64,000 nt of DNA from Thermovibrio guaymasensis (GTDB lineage: Bacteria; Aquificota; Aquificia; Desulfurobacteriales; Desulfurobacteriaceae). The DNA is taken from NCBI RefSeq assembly GCF_003633715.1, contig NZ_RBIE01000001.1:605331-669330 (forward strand). Reading direction: 5' to 3'. Below are positions 23,080 to 32,001 of the stretch, one piece after another (position 1 is the first letter of the stretch; each line of letters starts with the position of its first letter). The notes under the pieces were generated by a model. It saw only the letters and a program-made list of their open reading frames with translations. It was not told the origin of the DNA and did no database searches. The translations under genes and the position numbers were made by a program.

Positions 23080-25874
<2,795 letters not shown>

Positions 25875-25888
25875 TTAAGGAGGAGGCT

Positions 25889-28153
25889 TTGGCGAGGAAG
25901 GAGATAGTCACGGGGAATGAGCTTCTCTTTTCATATCAGAGGGGAAAGAAAGTTTACCTATGTAGCTCTCAGACGTTCTACTCTGAGGTAGCCGGCGCTT
26001 ACCTCCTCTACCCTCCCCTTTACTCTGAACTAGATGAGTACGTGAAAGTCTCAGATAGCTACCTCTGGAGTATTGCAAATCTTATGGCCGAAGGTTTAGC
26101 TGGAAGGGATGTGAAGGTAGAGCTCTTAAAGGCTGTAGAGGAAATTAACCGGTTGTTTGAAAAGGGGAGGGGAGTTCTTCCCTCAAAGAGGAGCTTTAGC
26201 TCTTTTAAATGGAGCCCTTTCCCAAGTAGGGAAGTAAATATTCCTTCAACTGGAAAAGGAGGTTTTCTTCACTTCATAAAGGAAGGGGGAAAGAGAGCCT
26301 TTTCCGTTTTCCTCTACGTTCCTGAAGCTGGGCCGACCAGTTGGTATGAGAGTAAAAAGAGGCTATATAGCAGGCTCTTACCTCTACTTCCAGAGGGTAT
26401 GAAGAAGGAAATAGACTACCTATTAAGTAAGTGTTCTGATTCTCTCTTTGGACCTGTTGCAGGTTACTTCCTTAGACACGGAGAACCTCTAGATTGGAAG
26501 TTTTACTCAAGAACTAAAGATGGAGTATACAGGATTTACACTCTCTACCCTAAGAACCTAAAGTCGAGGAAGAGGTACTCAAAGGAGAAAGTTAAGGAGA
26601 GAGCCCTAGAAATTTTAAAAGGTTCTTTAGAGTACCAGTCGGTTTCGAGAAATCAGAAGCTAAAGGAGGTTGTTGAAAGGGAATTTGAGGAGCTCTACAA
26701 CGCCTTTTCCCGCCTCCTTGAACTTACTTGGGACTTTCATAAGAACTACAGCAAACACCTTTTAAAAGCTTTAGACCTTGAGTTTAATGAGATCAAGGTT
26801 ATTAACTACTCCCAAGAGTCTAGGAAAAAGGTTCCCTTCTCCGTTTCAGGTAGTAGGGTCGAGATAGAGAAGGCCAAAATCCTTCACTTTGGGAAGGGAG
26901 GAAAGGTAGTTAACCTCCTAAAAAGGAAGTTGGGAGAGTTCGGTGTAGAGGCAAGTTCAGTAAGCCTTGATTTTATACCTATTTTTGAAAAAGGAGCGGT
27001 AGTTAGGTTTAAGGGAGATAAAATCCTATTTAGACCTGGCTTCTTTTACCTTTCCCTTGGTTTAGCCCTTGCCCTTGCAAAGTTTGGGAAGGAAGGAGAG
27101 GCTATTTTCTTCCAGTTTCACGAGGGTAAGGAAGGTAGTCCCTGGTGGGATATAAAGAACCTTTTTCTGGACTTAACAAAGCGTATTTACAACTACGGTA
27201 CCTCATATCCTAATCAAGGTTTTACTGATGAGCTTTACCCTACCTTGAAAAAGTACGCTTCTTACGTTGTACCTTATGCTCTTAACTCAGCGGTAAAGAG
27301 TGGAAAGAAGATAGAGGTCCTTTTTGACGTTAAAGGAGGGGACTTTAAGGTTCAAGGCCACTTAATAAGGGAGTTCTCTTCAGGTTACCTTGTTCCTTCC
27401 TGTGCAGTTGAAGAGTTGGGAGTAGAACCGTTAACCCTTAAACACAGGCTCTTTAAGGTTTACGAATACACTATTGAGAGCTCCTACGAAGGAGTAAAAA
27501 CGAAGATTAAGTTCTTAGGTAGGGTTATGAGGCTTGCTGGAGGTGAGGAGGCAAAGGTTGGAAACCTTCCAGCTAAGTTAATAAATCCGATAATCCTTAC
27601 CTCAGATAAGTTAACCTCTCCTGAGAAAATTAAAGATACAGTACTTCAGGCCTTTCACAGTAGTGGCTTTGAAGGGGAGCTCCTCATAGTTCAAACCAAT
27701 CCCGATTACCCGATTACCCACTTTATAAAGAGGGGAGTTCTTAAAAAGGCCTTTATCCTTCTAAAGTCTGAAGGTGGTACCCATACTAAAGTAATAGAGG
27801 ACGTTATGGGAGATGAGGCCAACAAAAGGCACTTCTGGACTCTTTTTGCTCCTCTTCCGCCTACAGCTAAGAAACTTTTAAAAGACGAAGGTTTTGTAAC
27901 TTCCCACGGGATTACCTACCTTCCTTTCCTATCGGGGGAGCTCTGGACTGAAGGAGCTCCTTACTTGAAGTTCCTTTTCCTTACCTACGGGATTTTCCAA
28001 TCTGACCTCTCTAATGACTTTGCAAAGGAAAAGGAGTACTTAAAGGATTCAGGGGGACTTAGTGTAGTAAGGAAAGGTTCTACGTTTAAGTTCCCAAAAA
28101 ACGGCCTGATTATTGAGGGTGCTTCAAGGATCGCCAGCGTTCTCTGTATTTGA
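25889..28153 (+). CDS. Uncharacterised 754-residue protein, partner of downstream helicase
   Basis: I do not recognise this protein. It has no signal peptide, no cysteine cluster and no Walker motif. Composition is that of a soluble alpha/beta protein rich in aromatic residues, with one short hydrophobic segment (~388-402, FFYLSLGLALALAKF). A helical middle (~225-300) separates an N-terminal region from a C-terminal half with several strand-like blocks: IEVLFDVKGGDFKVQGHLI (~474-492), GELLIVQTNPDYPITHFI and KAFILLKSEGGTHTKVIED. The conserved-looking polar residues in these blocks might form an active site (inference). I looked for an Argonaute PIWI tetrad and did not find one. Start is TTG with AAGGAGG four bases upstream. 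It follows ligA by 14 nt and precedes the helicase by 9 nt, so the two probably act together. Confidence 0.7.
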   Translation: MARKEIVTGNELLFSYQRGKKVYLCSSQTFYSEVAGAYLLYPPLYSELDEYVKVSDSYLWSIANLMAEGLAGRDVKVELLKAVEEINRLFEKGRGVLPSKRSFSSFKWSPFPSREVNIPSTGKGGFLHFIKEGGKRAFSVFLYVPEAGPTSWYESKKRLYSRLLPLLPEGMKKEIDYLLSKCSDSLFGPVAGYFLRHGEPLDWKFYSRTKDGVYRIYTLYPKNLKSRKRYSKEKVKERALEILKGSLEYQSVSRNQKLKEVVEREFEELYNAFSRLLELTWDFHKNYSKHLLKALDLEFNEIKVINYSQESRKKVPFSVSGSRVEIEKAKILHFGKGGKVVNLLKRKLGEFGVEASSVSLDFIPIFEKGAVVRFKGDKILFRPGFFYLSLGLALALAKFGKEGEAIFFQFHEGKEGSPWWDIKNLFLDLTKRIYNYGTSYPNQGFTDELYPTLKKYASYVVPYALNSAVKSGKKIEVLFDVKGGDFKVQGHLIREFSSGYLVPSCAVEELGVEPLTLKHRLFKVYEYTIESSYEGVKTKIKFLGRVMRLAGGEEAKVGNLPAKLINPIILTSDKLTSPEKIKDTVLQAFHSSGFEGELLIVQTNPDYPITHFIKRGVLKKAFILLKSEGGTHTKVIEDVMGDEANKRHFWTLFAPLPPTAKKLLKDEGFVTSHGITYLPFLSGELWTEGAPYLKFLFLTYGIFQSDLSNDFAKEKEYLKDSGGLSVVRKGSTFKFPKNGLIIEGASRIASVLCI

Positions 28154-28162
28154 GGATTAACT

Positions 28163-30913
28163 GTGGTTGTTAACGATTTAAGACCCTTATTCGGTAAGCT
28201 TTTTGAACTCTCCTTTATTAAAAGGGCTTCAGAAGTTTGGGGCTTTAAAGTTCCTATAGTTGAAAGGGAGATTTCCACTTTAACGTCTCTACTGAAGGAT
28301 TGGGAAGTAGACCCCGATTTTTCAAATAGGTTTTTAAAAGCCGGAACTGTTGCTTTTGACGAGTATCTCAAATTCTTAAGCCAGGCCATAACCTCCCAGG
28401 TGGGGAAGTTTAAATTCCTGTCCTTTGAGGAGAGGGTCCTTTACCAGGAAGAACTACTTCCTCTCTCTTACCAGAATGCAGATTTTATTGCCTACTTAAA
28501 AGGTGAATGTGGTACAGTTGCTGTCGTTTTGGAGCTAACCACTTCAGGCGTTTTTGAGCTCTTTTACAACTTCTACCACGGTAGAATTGATGAGGGATTA
28601 AGTTCCCTTTCGAGGCCGGATATCTTTGTTCCTGTTAACTACTTAACCTCCTCCCTCTTTGAATTTTCAAAGGAGATTTCAGCTTACCTTAATAACCTTG
28701 ATAGGTTAGGCATTCCGTTTTCAGAATTAGAGGCCATCAAGTTCGCTCAGGTACTTGGATACGCCATTTCCCATAAGCTTGATAGGGAATGGCACGAAAA
28801 GAGAGCGGACTACTACTTTATCGGAGTAGTTTCTCCAGTATTTGAGATGCCAAGCGGCCTTTTCAAGGCTGACGGTAGTGATGAGGAGCTTGAAGAGATT
28901 TTAGAGAGTTTAAGAAATTACTACAGTAAGAGGAAAAACTTAGGTAATGTAAGTTGTGTTATAGAAAAGGTAGCTGAGAAGGAAACTTGCGAGCTTTACA
29001 GTGAAAAGCTTGGCTCAATAAAAGAGGTAAGAGCTAGAGTGGAGAGGGGTATTTTGGAATCTGAAAGGGGAAAGCTCTACCTTATGGTTCACCCGGCAGG
29101 TAGTGGTAAGACTACTTCCGTCTTTAAACTCATCAAAAGTTTGAGGGAAAGGGGAGAAAGGGTTTTCCTCTTTTACTTTTCCCCGAGGAAGAGGATAAAT
29201 GAGGATAAGAGAGAAAAATTCTCTAATGAATTGGGAGGTAAGCTCCTTTCAACTGAACGGGAATTTTCCTCAGGTGATTCGTACAGTGGTTTTTGGACTG
29301 GAGGTTTCAGGAAGGGGAAGCTATCCTCTGCAAAGGCAGACCTTGAAAATAGAATTAGGTTAGGTGAAGACCTTGATCTTGTTGGTCTTTTCTCAACTAT
29401 TCACTCAGTTGCAAGGGTTTACGGTAGGAGTACTGCTGAGAAAGTTAGAGAAATGGCCAAGCTTTGGCTTGAATATGGGAAAGGGAACGGAACCATTATC
29501 GTTGTTGTTGATGAGCTTACCGGTAGTGAAGGGGGATTGGTCTCTTTAAAAGACTTGATTGATGCTCTCTCAAGGGAAGGACTTTTAAATAGAACCTATC
29601 TCTTTGGACTTGATGCTAACCTTTTGTGTGGTGAAGTTGTTGATAATTACGTTAAGTGGGTAAAGGATTTCCTTGATAAAGGTTTGACAGCTCCAGAGCT
29701 CCTGTTAAGGGTTACTGAGGAGAATTTTCAGAGGACCCTTCATAATTACTCTTCAAAGACTGCTGAAGATTTCTTTGGAGTTCCCACTATTGTTGATAGC
29801 CAGCCTGCCTTCATTGGAAGAAGCTTGAAGCTAGTAACCAGGTGGGAGCTCCTACCAAAGCCTAAAAGCAGGGAGGAGAGGTTAGGCCTTTTAGCAAAGA
29901 AACTTGCCGATTGGCTACTGTTGAAGGGAAAAGGAACCTTCTGTTACATTCAGGATAGGGAAGTTGCAGCTAAGCTTTCTTTACTTTTAGAATCTAAAGG
30001 GTATCGGGTTGGGATTTATACTGCCTATAGCTTTAGCGAGGACTTTAAAGGTTGTGACTTTATTATCGGTACCTCGTCAATATCAAGGGGAATTGATGTA
30101 CCCTTTAATAAAGCCCTAATCCTTATTCCCTCTTTCTTACCTGAAGTTCAGCTTGGGGAAGTTTACCAAGCAGTTTCAAGGATAAGGCAAGGGAAAGGGG
30201 ATGAAGGTGAAAAGGAGGTAGAGTTTGTTTACATAGGTTTTGAAGGAGATAAAAAAGAGTACAGAAAGCTTTGGGAGTTTAGGGCTTTTAAAGTTGTAGA
30301 TTTGGCTAAGGAGATTGTCCTTTCTTACTTCCTTAAGAGTAAATCCCACAGAACAGTTGTTCTCCCTCCAACTAGGGAACATACAGGGGATGAGGTAAAT
30401 ATTATTAACTCATTAATTGAAGTTGAAAGGCTTACCGGCGTTCCCGTTTATTCAGCCTCATCTACCACGAGGACTTCTATTTCCTCTCCTGATAAACCTC
30501 CCTTAAAGTTCTGTTATCCCTTTAGACTCTATAGAGGCTATGGAACTTTAACTGTAAGCGTTAGGCTTTTAAGGAAAGCCCTTTCCTTATTAAAAACCCT
30601 TTTAAAAGAAGAGGGAGTTAGGAAAGAAAGGATAGGAGAGCTAATAGGTATGATTGAAGAGTTAATTAGAGCAGAGGGTAGGAAATTGGTTCCGAACCTC
30701 CAGGTGGCTGTTAATAGTGTTTTAACTGAGACTTTTAAAGACAAAATTAAGGGTCTTTCCTATCGGGGGAAGTCTGTTGACCTCCTCATGGCTGAAGGTG
30801 GAATAGGCTTTTCTGCCCAGGTTCTTCCTCAAGGGGCAATAGCTTTCGTTTTAAGGAGGGAAAGGTCCTCTTGTTTTGGCTCAGTTCCAAAGGTTCCGTT
30901 GGAAAGCCTCTAA
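28163..30913 (+). CDS. SF2-type helicase with N-terminal nuclease-like region, uncharacterised
   Basis: 916 residues. Helicase motifs in order: I HPAGSGKTTS (Lys316), Ia-like VFLFYFSPRKR, II VVVDEL (Asp450-Glu451), IV FCYIQDREVAAKL (~592-604), V IIGTSSISRGID (634-645), VI QAVSRIRQG (669-677). Motif VI differs from the usual QxxGRxGR, so the subfamily is unclear. The N-terminal ~300 residues look like a PD-(D/E)XK fold: Asp107, then VVLELT with Glu124 and Thr126 where Lys is normal, then FAQVLGYAI with Gln196 and Tyr200, as in the QxxxY element of RecB/Cas4-type nucleases. The C-terminal ~220 residues are unassigned. Start is GTG with GAGGA six bases upstream. Its stop overlaps that of the convergent ABC permease. 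A DNA-processing or defence role is inference. Confidence 0.75.
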   Translation: MVVNDLRPLFGKLFELSFIKRASEVWGFKVPIVEREISTLTSLLKDWEVDPDFSNRFLKAGTVAFDEYLKFLSQAITSQVGKFKFLSFEERVLYQEELLPLSYQNADFIAYLKGECGTVAVVLELTTSGVFELFYNFYHGRIDEGLSSLSRPDIFVPVNYLTSSLFEFSKEISAYLNNLDRLGIPFSELEAIKFAQVLGYAISHKLDREWHEKRADYYFIGVVSPVFEMPSGLFKADGSDEELEEILESLRNYYSKRKNLGNVSCVIEKVAEKETCELYSEKLGSIKEVRARVERGILESERGKLYLMVHPAGSGKTTSVFKLIKSLRERGERVFLFYFSPRKRINEDKREKFSNELGGKLLSTEREFSSGDSYSGFWTGGFRKGKLSSAKADLENRIRLGEDLDLVGLFSTIHSVARVYGRSTAEKVREMAKLWLEYGKGNGTIIVVVDELTGSEGGLVSLKDLIDALSREGLLNRTYLFGLDANLLCGEVVDNYVKWVKDFLDKGLTAPELLLRVTEENFQRTLHNYSSKTAEDFFGVPTIVDSQPAFIGRSLKLVTRWELLPKPKSREERLGLLAKKLADWLLLKGKGTFCYIQDREVAAKLSLLLESKGYRVGIYTAYSFSEDFKGCDFIIGTSSISRGIDVPFNKALILIPSFLPEVQLGEVYQAVSRIRQGKGDEGEKEVEFVYIGFEGDKKEYRKLWEFRAFKVVDLAKEIVLSYFLKSKSHRTVVLPPTREHTGDEVNIINSLIEVERLTGVPVYSASSTTRTSISSPDKPPLKFCYPFRLYRGYGTLTVSVRLLRKALSLLKTLLKEEGVRKERIGELIGMIEELIRAEGRKLVPNLQVAVNSVLTETFKDKIKGLSYRGKSVDLLMAEGGIGFSAQVLPQGAIAFVLRRERSSCFGSVPKVPLESL

Positions 30914-32001
30914 GATTTCTTCTTTAAGAAGAAAGTTCCAGCTGTAAAGAGAGCTCCCCCTAAAATTAGAAGGGCGTAAATCTGATCCCTTAACTCCCAG
31001 AGGGATCGCCCTTTTATAGCTATAGAGAGAGCTCCGTTTATGTAGTACTTAAGGGGGGATAAGGCCGACAGCCACTGAAGTATTTTTGGCATACTCTCTA
31101 TCGGAGTCCAGCTTCCTGATAGGTATAAAACAGACACTAAAATTAAGATCGTTAGCTGTGAAACTTGAAGCATGTTCTCCGATATTGAGGCTATAAAGAG
31201 GGAAAGTCCCGTTGTTGTAAATGCGTATGCTGCAGTTAAGAGTAGGAAGTCTATCTCCTTTCCGTGAAAGGGAACTCCTGAAAGCTTTTCAACGGTAAAA
31301 AACAGTGCAAGGGCAGTAAAGATTAAAACGAGAATGGACATTGCAATAACCTTTACTGTAGTGAAAAACTCAATAGGTACCGGTGAGACGAGGAGCATTT
31401 CAACATTTCCCCTCTCCTTTTCAATAACGATTGCGGCAGCAGGAAGGAGGAGGAGGAAGAGGGTAATTACGGTTAAGAGCTCCGAGTAGGCCATAAATAC
31501 TTTACTTGAGGCGTTCTGGTTGAAGAAAATCCTTGGCCTAACTTCAATCCAGCTCCCTCCTCTCATAAAGTTTCCTGTCAGGAAGGTATAGATTATCTGC
31601 TCTGCGTATGCTGAAAAGAGGTAACTTGAGGAGATTTCAGCTCCGTTTACCAAAACTCCAACTTCTAACCTCTTTCCCTCCTTTATGTTCTTTTCAAACT
31701 TCTGTGGAATTTCAATAACTCCGATTGCCCTATCATCAAGGAGAACTTTGTCTATCTGGTCGTCGTCCATTAAGTAGCCTTTAAAGTTAAAGTAGTACGG
31801 GGGGAACTTTGATATTAGCTCCCTTGATAGAAATGAGTAATCCCTATCCTGAGCGTAAAAGGAGGCGTTTTTTAAAGTTAGGTCAATTCCCGTTGCCGCT
31901 AAGTAGATGTCAAGGGTAAAGGCGTAAACTGTAAAGATTAAAAGTCCCCTATTCCTCATAAACTGTAAGAACTCCTTATAAAGGAGGACTAAGAACTTCA
32001 T
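30910..32001 (-). CDS. ABC-2 type permease (YbhR-like)
   Basis: 363 residues: one N-terminal helix (~18-38), a large external domain (~45-170) and five C-terminal helices (~178-358). The ABC-2 signature VEMLLVSPVPIEFFTTVKVI sits between the second and third helices. Together with the next permease and the tandem-domain ATPase it matches the YbhFSR-type exporter organisation of E. coli. It is the last gene of the TetR-controlled operon and overlaps the second permease gene by 4 nt. The substrate is not evident; related systems export drugs or small hydrophobic compounds. Confidence 0.87.
   Translation of the reverse strand: MKFLVLLYKEFLQFMRNRGLLIFTVYAFTLDIYLAATGIDLTLKNASFYAQDRDYSFLSRELISKFPPYYFNFKGYLMDDDQIDKVLLDDRAIGVIEIPQKFEKNIKEGKRLEVGVLVNGAEISSSYLFSAYAEQIIYTFLTGNFMRGGSWIEVRPRIFFNQNASSKVFMAYSELLTVITLFLLLLPAAAIVIEKERGNVEMLLVSPVPIEFFTTVKVIAMSILVLIFTALALFFTVEKLSGVPFHGKEIDFLLLTAAYAFTTTGLSLFIASISENMLQVSQLTILILVSVLYLSGSWTPIESMPKILQWLSALSPLKYYINGALSIAIKGRSLWELRDQIYALLILGGALFTAGTFFLKKKS

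Follow-up and report, generated by a model that had tools for sequence, protein, structure and literature searches.

The two genes lying behind ligA in the window, the whole stretch of 64,000 nucleotides of Thermovibrio guaymasensis DNA analysed here, are best read as a horizontally acquired two-gene defence module, in which an inactive, guide-binding Argonaute (P1) would recruit a helicase-nuclease (P2) to invader DNA. We put the probability of this reading at roughly two in three. The pairing of the genes, the fold of the P1 family, the helicase motifs and the motif changes on which it draws are established or well supported.

The gene pair and the P1 family

Both open reading frames of this 1.6 Mb Aquificota genome, their non-ATG starts, the 9 nt between the P1 stop and the P2 start and the ribosome sites are exactly as a preliminary description of the DNA had given them (Table 1). 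The ribosome site ahead of the P1 TTG is AAGGAGGAG, and GAGGA, lying across the P1 stop, is that ahead of the P2 GTG. The G+C content of the pair (0.42) is similar to that of the neighbours, in agreement with the neighbour-like codon use noted earlier. Also upheld was the view of an unassigned two-gene module of defence-type architecture, for which an Argonaute-helicase pair had been among the examples named.

Table 1. Features of the P1-P2 region, in coordinates of the window.
Feature	Position	Strand	Remarks
ligA	23703..25874	+	ends 14 nt upstream of P1
ligA/P1 junction	25875..25888	+	ribosome-binding site inside; left edge of insertion; sister homology ends 25873, resumes 30997-31010
P1	25889..28153	+	754 aa, TTG start; diverged PIWI/Argonaute-like protein, probably without catalytic activity
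P1 MID-like region, approximate (residues 317-479)	26837..27325	+	strand/helix order, low-confidence window model in register with L021
MID motif W420...P441-x-Q443...K470	27146..27298	+	17 aligned homologues: Q invariant, W 16/17, K/R 17/17
P1 PIWI-like region, approximate (residues 486-752)	27344..28144	+	RNase H-like strand order in models; catalytic tetrad not recognisable
P2	28163..30913	+	916 aa, GTG start; N-terminal nuclease-like region and SF2 helicase
Degenerate PD-(D/E)XK D107...E124-L-T126	28481..28540	+	Lys to Thr in window copy
Q196-x3-Y200 (RecB/Cas4-type QxxxY)	28748..28762	+	invariant, 17/17 aligned
Walker A / motif I PAGSGKT	29093..29113	+	G-x-GKT invariant in aligned homologues
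Motif II Asp450-Glu451 (VVDELTG)	29510..29515	+	DE invariant (DE-L/F)
SF2 motif VI Q669-AVSRIR675	30167..30187	+	Q..x.R.R invariant

Sequence libraries were silent on the window P1, for which no domain had been named before: neither Pfam nor PADLOC matched it, and among NCBIfam models and PDB sequences nothing reached significance. Among 16 P1 proteins none matched the Pfam Piwi or PAZ models at E ≤ 10, and two matched the PADLOC pAgo model, the best being L065 over the MID part (E 7e-5). The AlphaFold2 model of the homologue L021, built with 18 relatives in the alignment, reached a pLDDT of 80.1 and a pTM of 0.83. A Foldseek search of the PDB with this model returned 37 matches at E ≤ 1e-3, all of them Argonaute/PIWI proteins or PIWI-bearing complexes. 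Among them were Aquifex Argonaute (AaAgo; E 1.2e-8, 709 columns), RsAgo, SPARTA, SPARDA, Piwi of mouse and fly, and the CDK8 module; a PIWI module is present in the Med13 subunit of the latter (PMC3702460). The first match beyond the cut-off had an E-value of 4e-3 and a probability of 0.21. The TM-scores were modest (0.23-0.33 by query length), as is expected of a strongly diverged protein whose domains shift relative to one another. Profile-profile comparison and fold search had both been suggested earlier; the latter led to Argonaute/PIWI proteins, and in the former the best hhalign alignment of P1 with Aquificota pAgos lay on the MID motif but did not rise above the column-shuffle null. That the P1 family carries a MID and an RNase H-like PIWI fold is thus a model-based prediction, and a well supported one.

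The window's own P1 is very probably a member of this family, on the basis of a weak but top-ranked profile match and the conserved pairing. A profile of the MID-PIWI part, made from 17 homologues with the window sequence excluded, ranked the window P1 first (E 9e-5) against a background of 176 real proteins and 500 shuffles (about 677 sequences), one known homologue aside. Its score was 17.6 bits, compared with 6.6 for the best decoy, and the match spanned residues 426-560. A full-length profile match depended on the divergent P1 of genome G092 and was lost when that sequence was left out. The assignment is further supported by the shared partner P2 and by the same order of structural elements. 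The AlphaFold model of the window P1 was poor (pLDDT 45.6); a Foldseek search with it gave no match at E ≤ 1e-3, DdmDE chains appearing at ranks 7 and 9 without significance, and its fold matches were set aside as evidence. Phylogenetic trees joined the window and G092 copies, a grouping that may be false since both are long branches.

The family shares a MID-like motif, W-x3-(S/N/R)-...-P-x-Q-...-N-...-K/R, of which W, P, Q and K are kept in the window. In the pocket set of the superfamily, Y/H/R-K...Q...K, the Q is invariant and the K/R conserved in P1, the Tyr in first place is replaced by Trp and the Lys in second place by S/N/R. The putative guide pocket of P1 therefore appears altered relative to the Y, K, Q and K of canonical long pAgos (PMC6299218). 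An unforced hhalign alignment paired the MID Q of P1 with that in IPSQ of an Aquificota pAgo, at a score that was not significant. The register of the PIWI part was taken from strand order and not from superposition. At position one the family has E and the window R; an E follows one residue on in the window, where the alignment could be shifted by a single residue. Position three varies, and a K/R lies near position four, at the domain end, where Aquifex Argonaute has Asp; the MID pocket of the latter likewise reads Y, K, Q, K. Because of the residues at these three positions, the DEDX catalytic tetrad of P1 has probably been lost.

The helicase and nuclease-like region of P2

P2 had been described as an SF2 helicase whose N-terminal part may be a nuclease, and the aligned homologues support this. 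Pfam covers only the helicase core, with ResIII in the window P2 (E 4.4e-6) and Helicase_C and DEAD in homologues, and the GKT, DE and Q..R.R motifs are kept in 17 of 17 aligned homologues. The nuclease motifs lie at residues 107-200, the helicase from about residue 285 onward. The family pattern in the N-terminal part is N-A-D...(V/L)-(V/Y)-D-F-K-(L)-x-G followed by Q-x3-Y, a PD-(D/E)XK signature of RecB/Cas4 type, and these motifs suggest a nuclease fold. A PADLOC model of an Argonaute-associated Cas4-like nuclease weakly touched one P2 member, right at the nuclease motif (E 0.009). D...(D/E)xK was found in 15 of the 17 aligned copies and E-L-T in the other two, those of the window and G092. 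DNA cutting by the window P2 is doubtful, because the motif Lys is Thr.

Two further weak PADLOC signals came from the motor of P2. A type IV DinG match was confined to the helicase core, and Cas3d models matched the C-terminal helicase lobe (E 2e-6 to 1e-2). This lobe is the likeness to the type I-D Cas3 helicase, from which P2 differs in having no HD nuclease, no adjoining type I Cascade genes and another N-terminal domain. For Hachiman and DISARM, no HamA/HamB or Drm PADLOC match was obtained with P1 or P2.

The closest working analogues would be DdmDE, the plasmid elimination system of Vibrio cholerae, and ApsAB, the antiplasmid system of Escherichia coli ST38; no description of the P1-P2 pair itself was found in the open-access literature. 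DdmDE has two genes, an SF2 helicase and a PD-(D/E)XK nuclease in one protein, a catalytically inactive long pAgo-like partner, and the helicase gene first, as in the P1-P2 homologues and not in the window. ApsAB likewise combines a nuclease/helicase with an Argonaute-like protein that is divergent but still shows a MID motif, with Q and K conserved. The pair could accordingly be a true but very diverged DdmDE or ApsAB, of common origin and with the domain order changed later. The two-gene operon with the helicase-nuclease ahead in homologues, the inactive PIWI and the DdmDE chains met with the poor window model would fit such a kinship, which we nevertheless consider distinctly unlikely. The nuclease is C-terminal in both DdmD, where the helicase is N-terminal, and ApsA, where it is central (PMC12409362, PMC11096173), whereas that of P2 is N-terminal. 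P1 and P2 have no detectable sequence similarity to DdmDE, and the window copy lacks the nuclease lysine. The PDB sequence matches listed (best 60 of 78 for P2) included neither DdmD nor DdmE, and DdmE was also absent from the 50 top structural matches of the L021 model. ApsB reads Y-x3-K...QG...K where P1 reads W-x3-(S/N/R)...PxQ...K/R, the P1 family having QT after P-x and the window copy alone QG. An RNase H fold is also lacking in ApsB, whereas the L021 match to Argonaute takes in most of the protein.

Long-B pAgos resemble P1 in their inactive PIWI, their nuclease/helicase partners (RecB/Cas4-like), their defence neighbourhoods and their horizontal spread (PMC6299218, PMC2743648). They differ in that P1 is missed by the Pfam Piwi model, has Trp for the MID Tyr, has lost the first Lys and has a fixed, fused nuclease-helicase as partner.

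Distribution and genomic sites of the pair

Of 136 Aquificota genomes, 24 carried P1, 25 carried P2 and 22 carried both (hypergeometric 5e-20, uncorrected for ancestry). The exceptions were P2 without P1 in G089, G094 and G098, which hold long P2 relatives, and P1 fragments in G049 and G114. Homologous pairs have P2 first, with the P1 start overlapping the P2 end or within a few nt of it (the broken copy of G084 excluded). The reversed order, P1 ahead of P2, was found only in the window copy and was counted against the module reading. Across the phylum the pair occupied many unrelated sites, next to thiF/csaA, hisF, dapB, aroC and others. Co-occurrence in differing contexts, proposed beforehand as the mark of a mobile module, was thus what the 22 shared genomes displayed. 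Kin were sought in depth within Aquificota and less deeply beyond it. Scans of 85,000 species by single sequence and by P-loop pattern, of low sensitivity, gave Aquificota relatives only, and shallow scans found no P2 relatives in plasmids, phages or viral contigs and no P1 relatives in plasmids or viral contigs.

The long P2 relatives, 1161-1162 aa where complete and without an adjoining P1, occur in three genomes of genus g25 (L074:5413-8898, L075:5613-9101, L076:1-1692), and in L075 and L076 the adjacent gene resembles one for carbon monoxide dehydrogenase. Genes for pAgos of 675-695 aa that Pfam does detect were seen in G004, G006 (window's family) and G022 (L121:5651-7738, L122:5429-7492, L107:328-2355), genomes without P1 or P2 relatives. 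A general decay of the pair was considered and dropped. Several genomes had been reported to carry a single stop codon; as their frames are intact, this codon probably marks the normal end of the gene. Only G084 (several breaks) and G049 (a relic) look damaged, and in either case the assembly could be at fault.

In the sister genome G001, with a LigA 94% identical to that of the window, ligA and the ABC-transporter gene are about 124 nt apart, and in G003 about 5 nt, with no pair in either. The homology of the window to sister genomes breaks off at ligA and resumes near 31000 (Table 1). The pair is absent from all 21 other genomes in the family. The simplest reading is that the pair was gained in the window lineage, loss elsewhere being the alternative. 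If acquired, the pair had been taken not to be recent; its composition is indeed native-looking, but its absence from a sister with so similar a LigA makes that dating doubtful.

The gap between ligA and the ABC-transporter gene (window 25874-30910; L091, L092, L093) is a variable site. It is empty in G001, G003, G008 and G018, filled by small genes in G013, G016 and G020, and by the P1-P2 module in G000. In G002, a third sister species, a type III-A csm operon (cas10, csm2-5, cas6) occupies it. In genus g6 the site is empty or holds small genes, and the filling of the site by small genes in other genomes was counted against the module reading; two small adjacent genes in g6 form a putative HEPN/nucleotidyltransferase toxin-antitoxin pair (L123:1312-2119, L125:1123-1971).

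Elsewhere the pair or its remains adjoin defence genes. In G035 (L065:1279-7419) a type III-A cas10-csm2-csm3 set begins 8 nt behind P1 in the same direction, so that joint transcription of the Argonaute-helicase pair with a CRISPR effector is possible. G030 has an AriA/AbiL-like ATPase (PADLOC defence model) as neighbour and G067 an MNT antitoxin-like gene (PADLOC PDC-S09). In G049 (L119:5248-9500) a P1 relic with its middle missing is followed 2 nt on by a large helicase matching DrmD/BrxH/PLD-helicase models, where apparently one defence system replaced another. Several other neighbourhoods consist of ordinary housekeeping genes and were counted against the module reading. Both the mobility of the pair and its nearness to defence genes are well supported.

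These sites bear on whether the pair is instead a housekeeping or DNA-repair module linked to LigA, made of a helicase-nuclease and an accessory DNA-binding protein. Helicases and nucleases do serve repair, and the pair follows ligA closely in the same direction with native-looking composition; because of the ligA link the preliminary description had held repair equally open. That parity was not supported: the linkage to ligA is peculiar to the window genome, the rest of the family is without the pair, the sister-species site is empty, the pair adjoins quite other genes elsewhere, it is disrupted in G084 and P1 is left as a relic in G049. We regard a repair role as improbable. To a similar degree we doubt that the pair is a decaying or inert passenger in the window genome. 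The ELT in place of (D/E)xK, the R instead of the usual E at the PIWI position, the fast evolution and the very long branches would agree with this, whereas both long frames are open and all helicase motifs intact. G092 diverges to about the same extent, likewise has ELT and retains both genes, a pattern that looks more like a subtype than like decay.

Proposed function

Very improbable is a PIWI-RE system in other guise, acting in guide-dependent restriction (PIWI-RE, DinG helicase and REase; Burroughs 2013): it unites the same three activities, with an SF2 helicase and an REase-fold region encoded alongside a protein of PIWI type (PMC3702460), but has three genes against two here, where the nuclease-like region is fused to a non-DinG helicase; the pPIWI-RE Pfam models (MID/RNase H) matched none of the 16 P1 proteins, MID_pPIWI_RE was found in 0 of 136 genomes in a search that gave no positive-control match, and P2 had no DinG-type Pfam match and no Cys invariant among aligned homologues. 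The end of the protein at which the nuclease lies, the sequences, the ApsB motif and the pPIWI-RE models all failed to match, and so set the pair apart from DdmDE, ApsAB and pPIWI-RE.

For the defence module, the following course of action is proposed. P1, a divergent Argonaute/PIWI protein with a decayed RNase H-like site, would use its MID pocket to bind a short guide and, so loaded, recognise invader DNA, plasmid or phage, to which it would recruit P2. The SF2 motor of P2 would unwind and run along the DNA, which the N-terminal PD-(D/E)XK domain would cut in the majority of family members. In DdmDE the pAgo has no catalytic activity and, guided by DNA, brings a helicase-nuclease to plasmids (PMC12409362); from analogy with this system and ApsAB we infer guide binding, guide type, target, recruitment and DNA destruction. 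The window copy may work by unwinding together with host nucleases, may use another basic residue, or may be losing its function. Helicase mutants of ApsA lost all activity and a nuclease mutant only part (PMC11096173), and since partial activity remained in the latter, a motor-only window copy is conceivable.

A bolder version of the defence reading, possible but on balance unlikely, is that in this pair hyperthermophiles possess an independent form of helicase(-nuclease) immunity directed by an Argonaute. This lineage would have a PIWI family unseen by current models, a Trp-type guide pocket and an origin separate from DdmDE, ApsAB and PIWI-RE. The window and G092 copies would then be a subtype without both nuclease sites, acting by guide-directed unwinding alone, possibly with type III CRISPR.

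The pair appears to add another combination of an Argonaute-like sensor with a helicase-nuclease effector, the nuclease lying at the opposite end of the motor. Because the Pfam Piwi model misses the P1 family, surveys of Argonautes undercount such systems. Thermostable parts would be useful in structural studies and in identifying guides, and the subtype without the nuclease would offer a test case for protection by unwinding alone. If the reading is true, it would suggest that the DdmDE design has been assembled more than once, and would carry that design to some of the most heat-loving bacteria.
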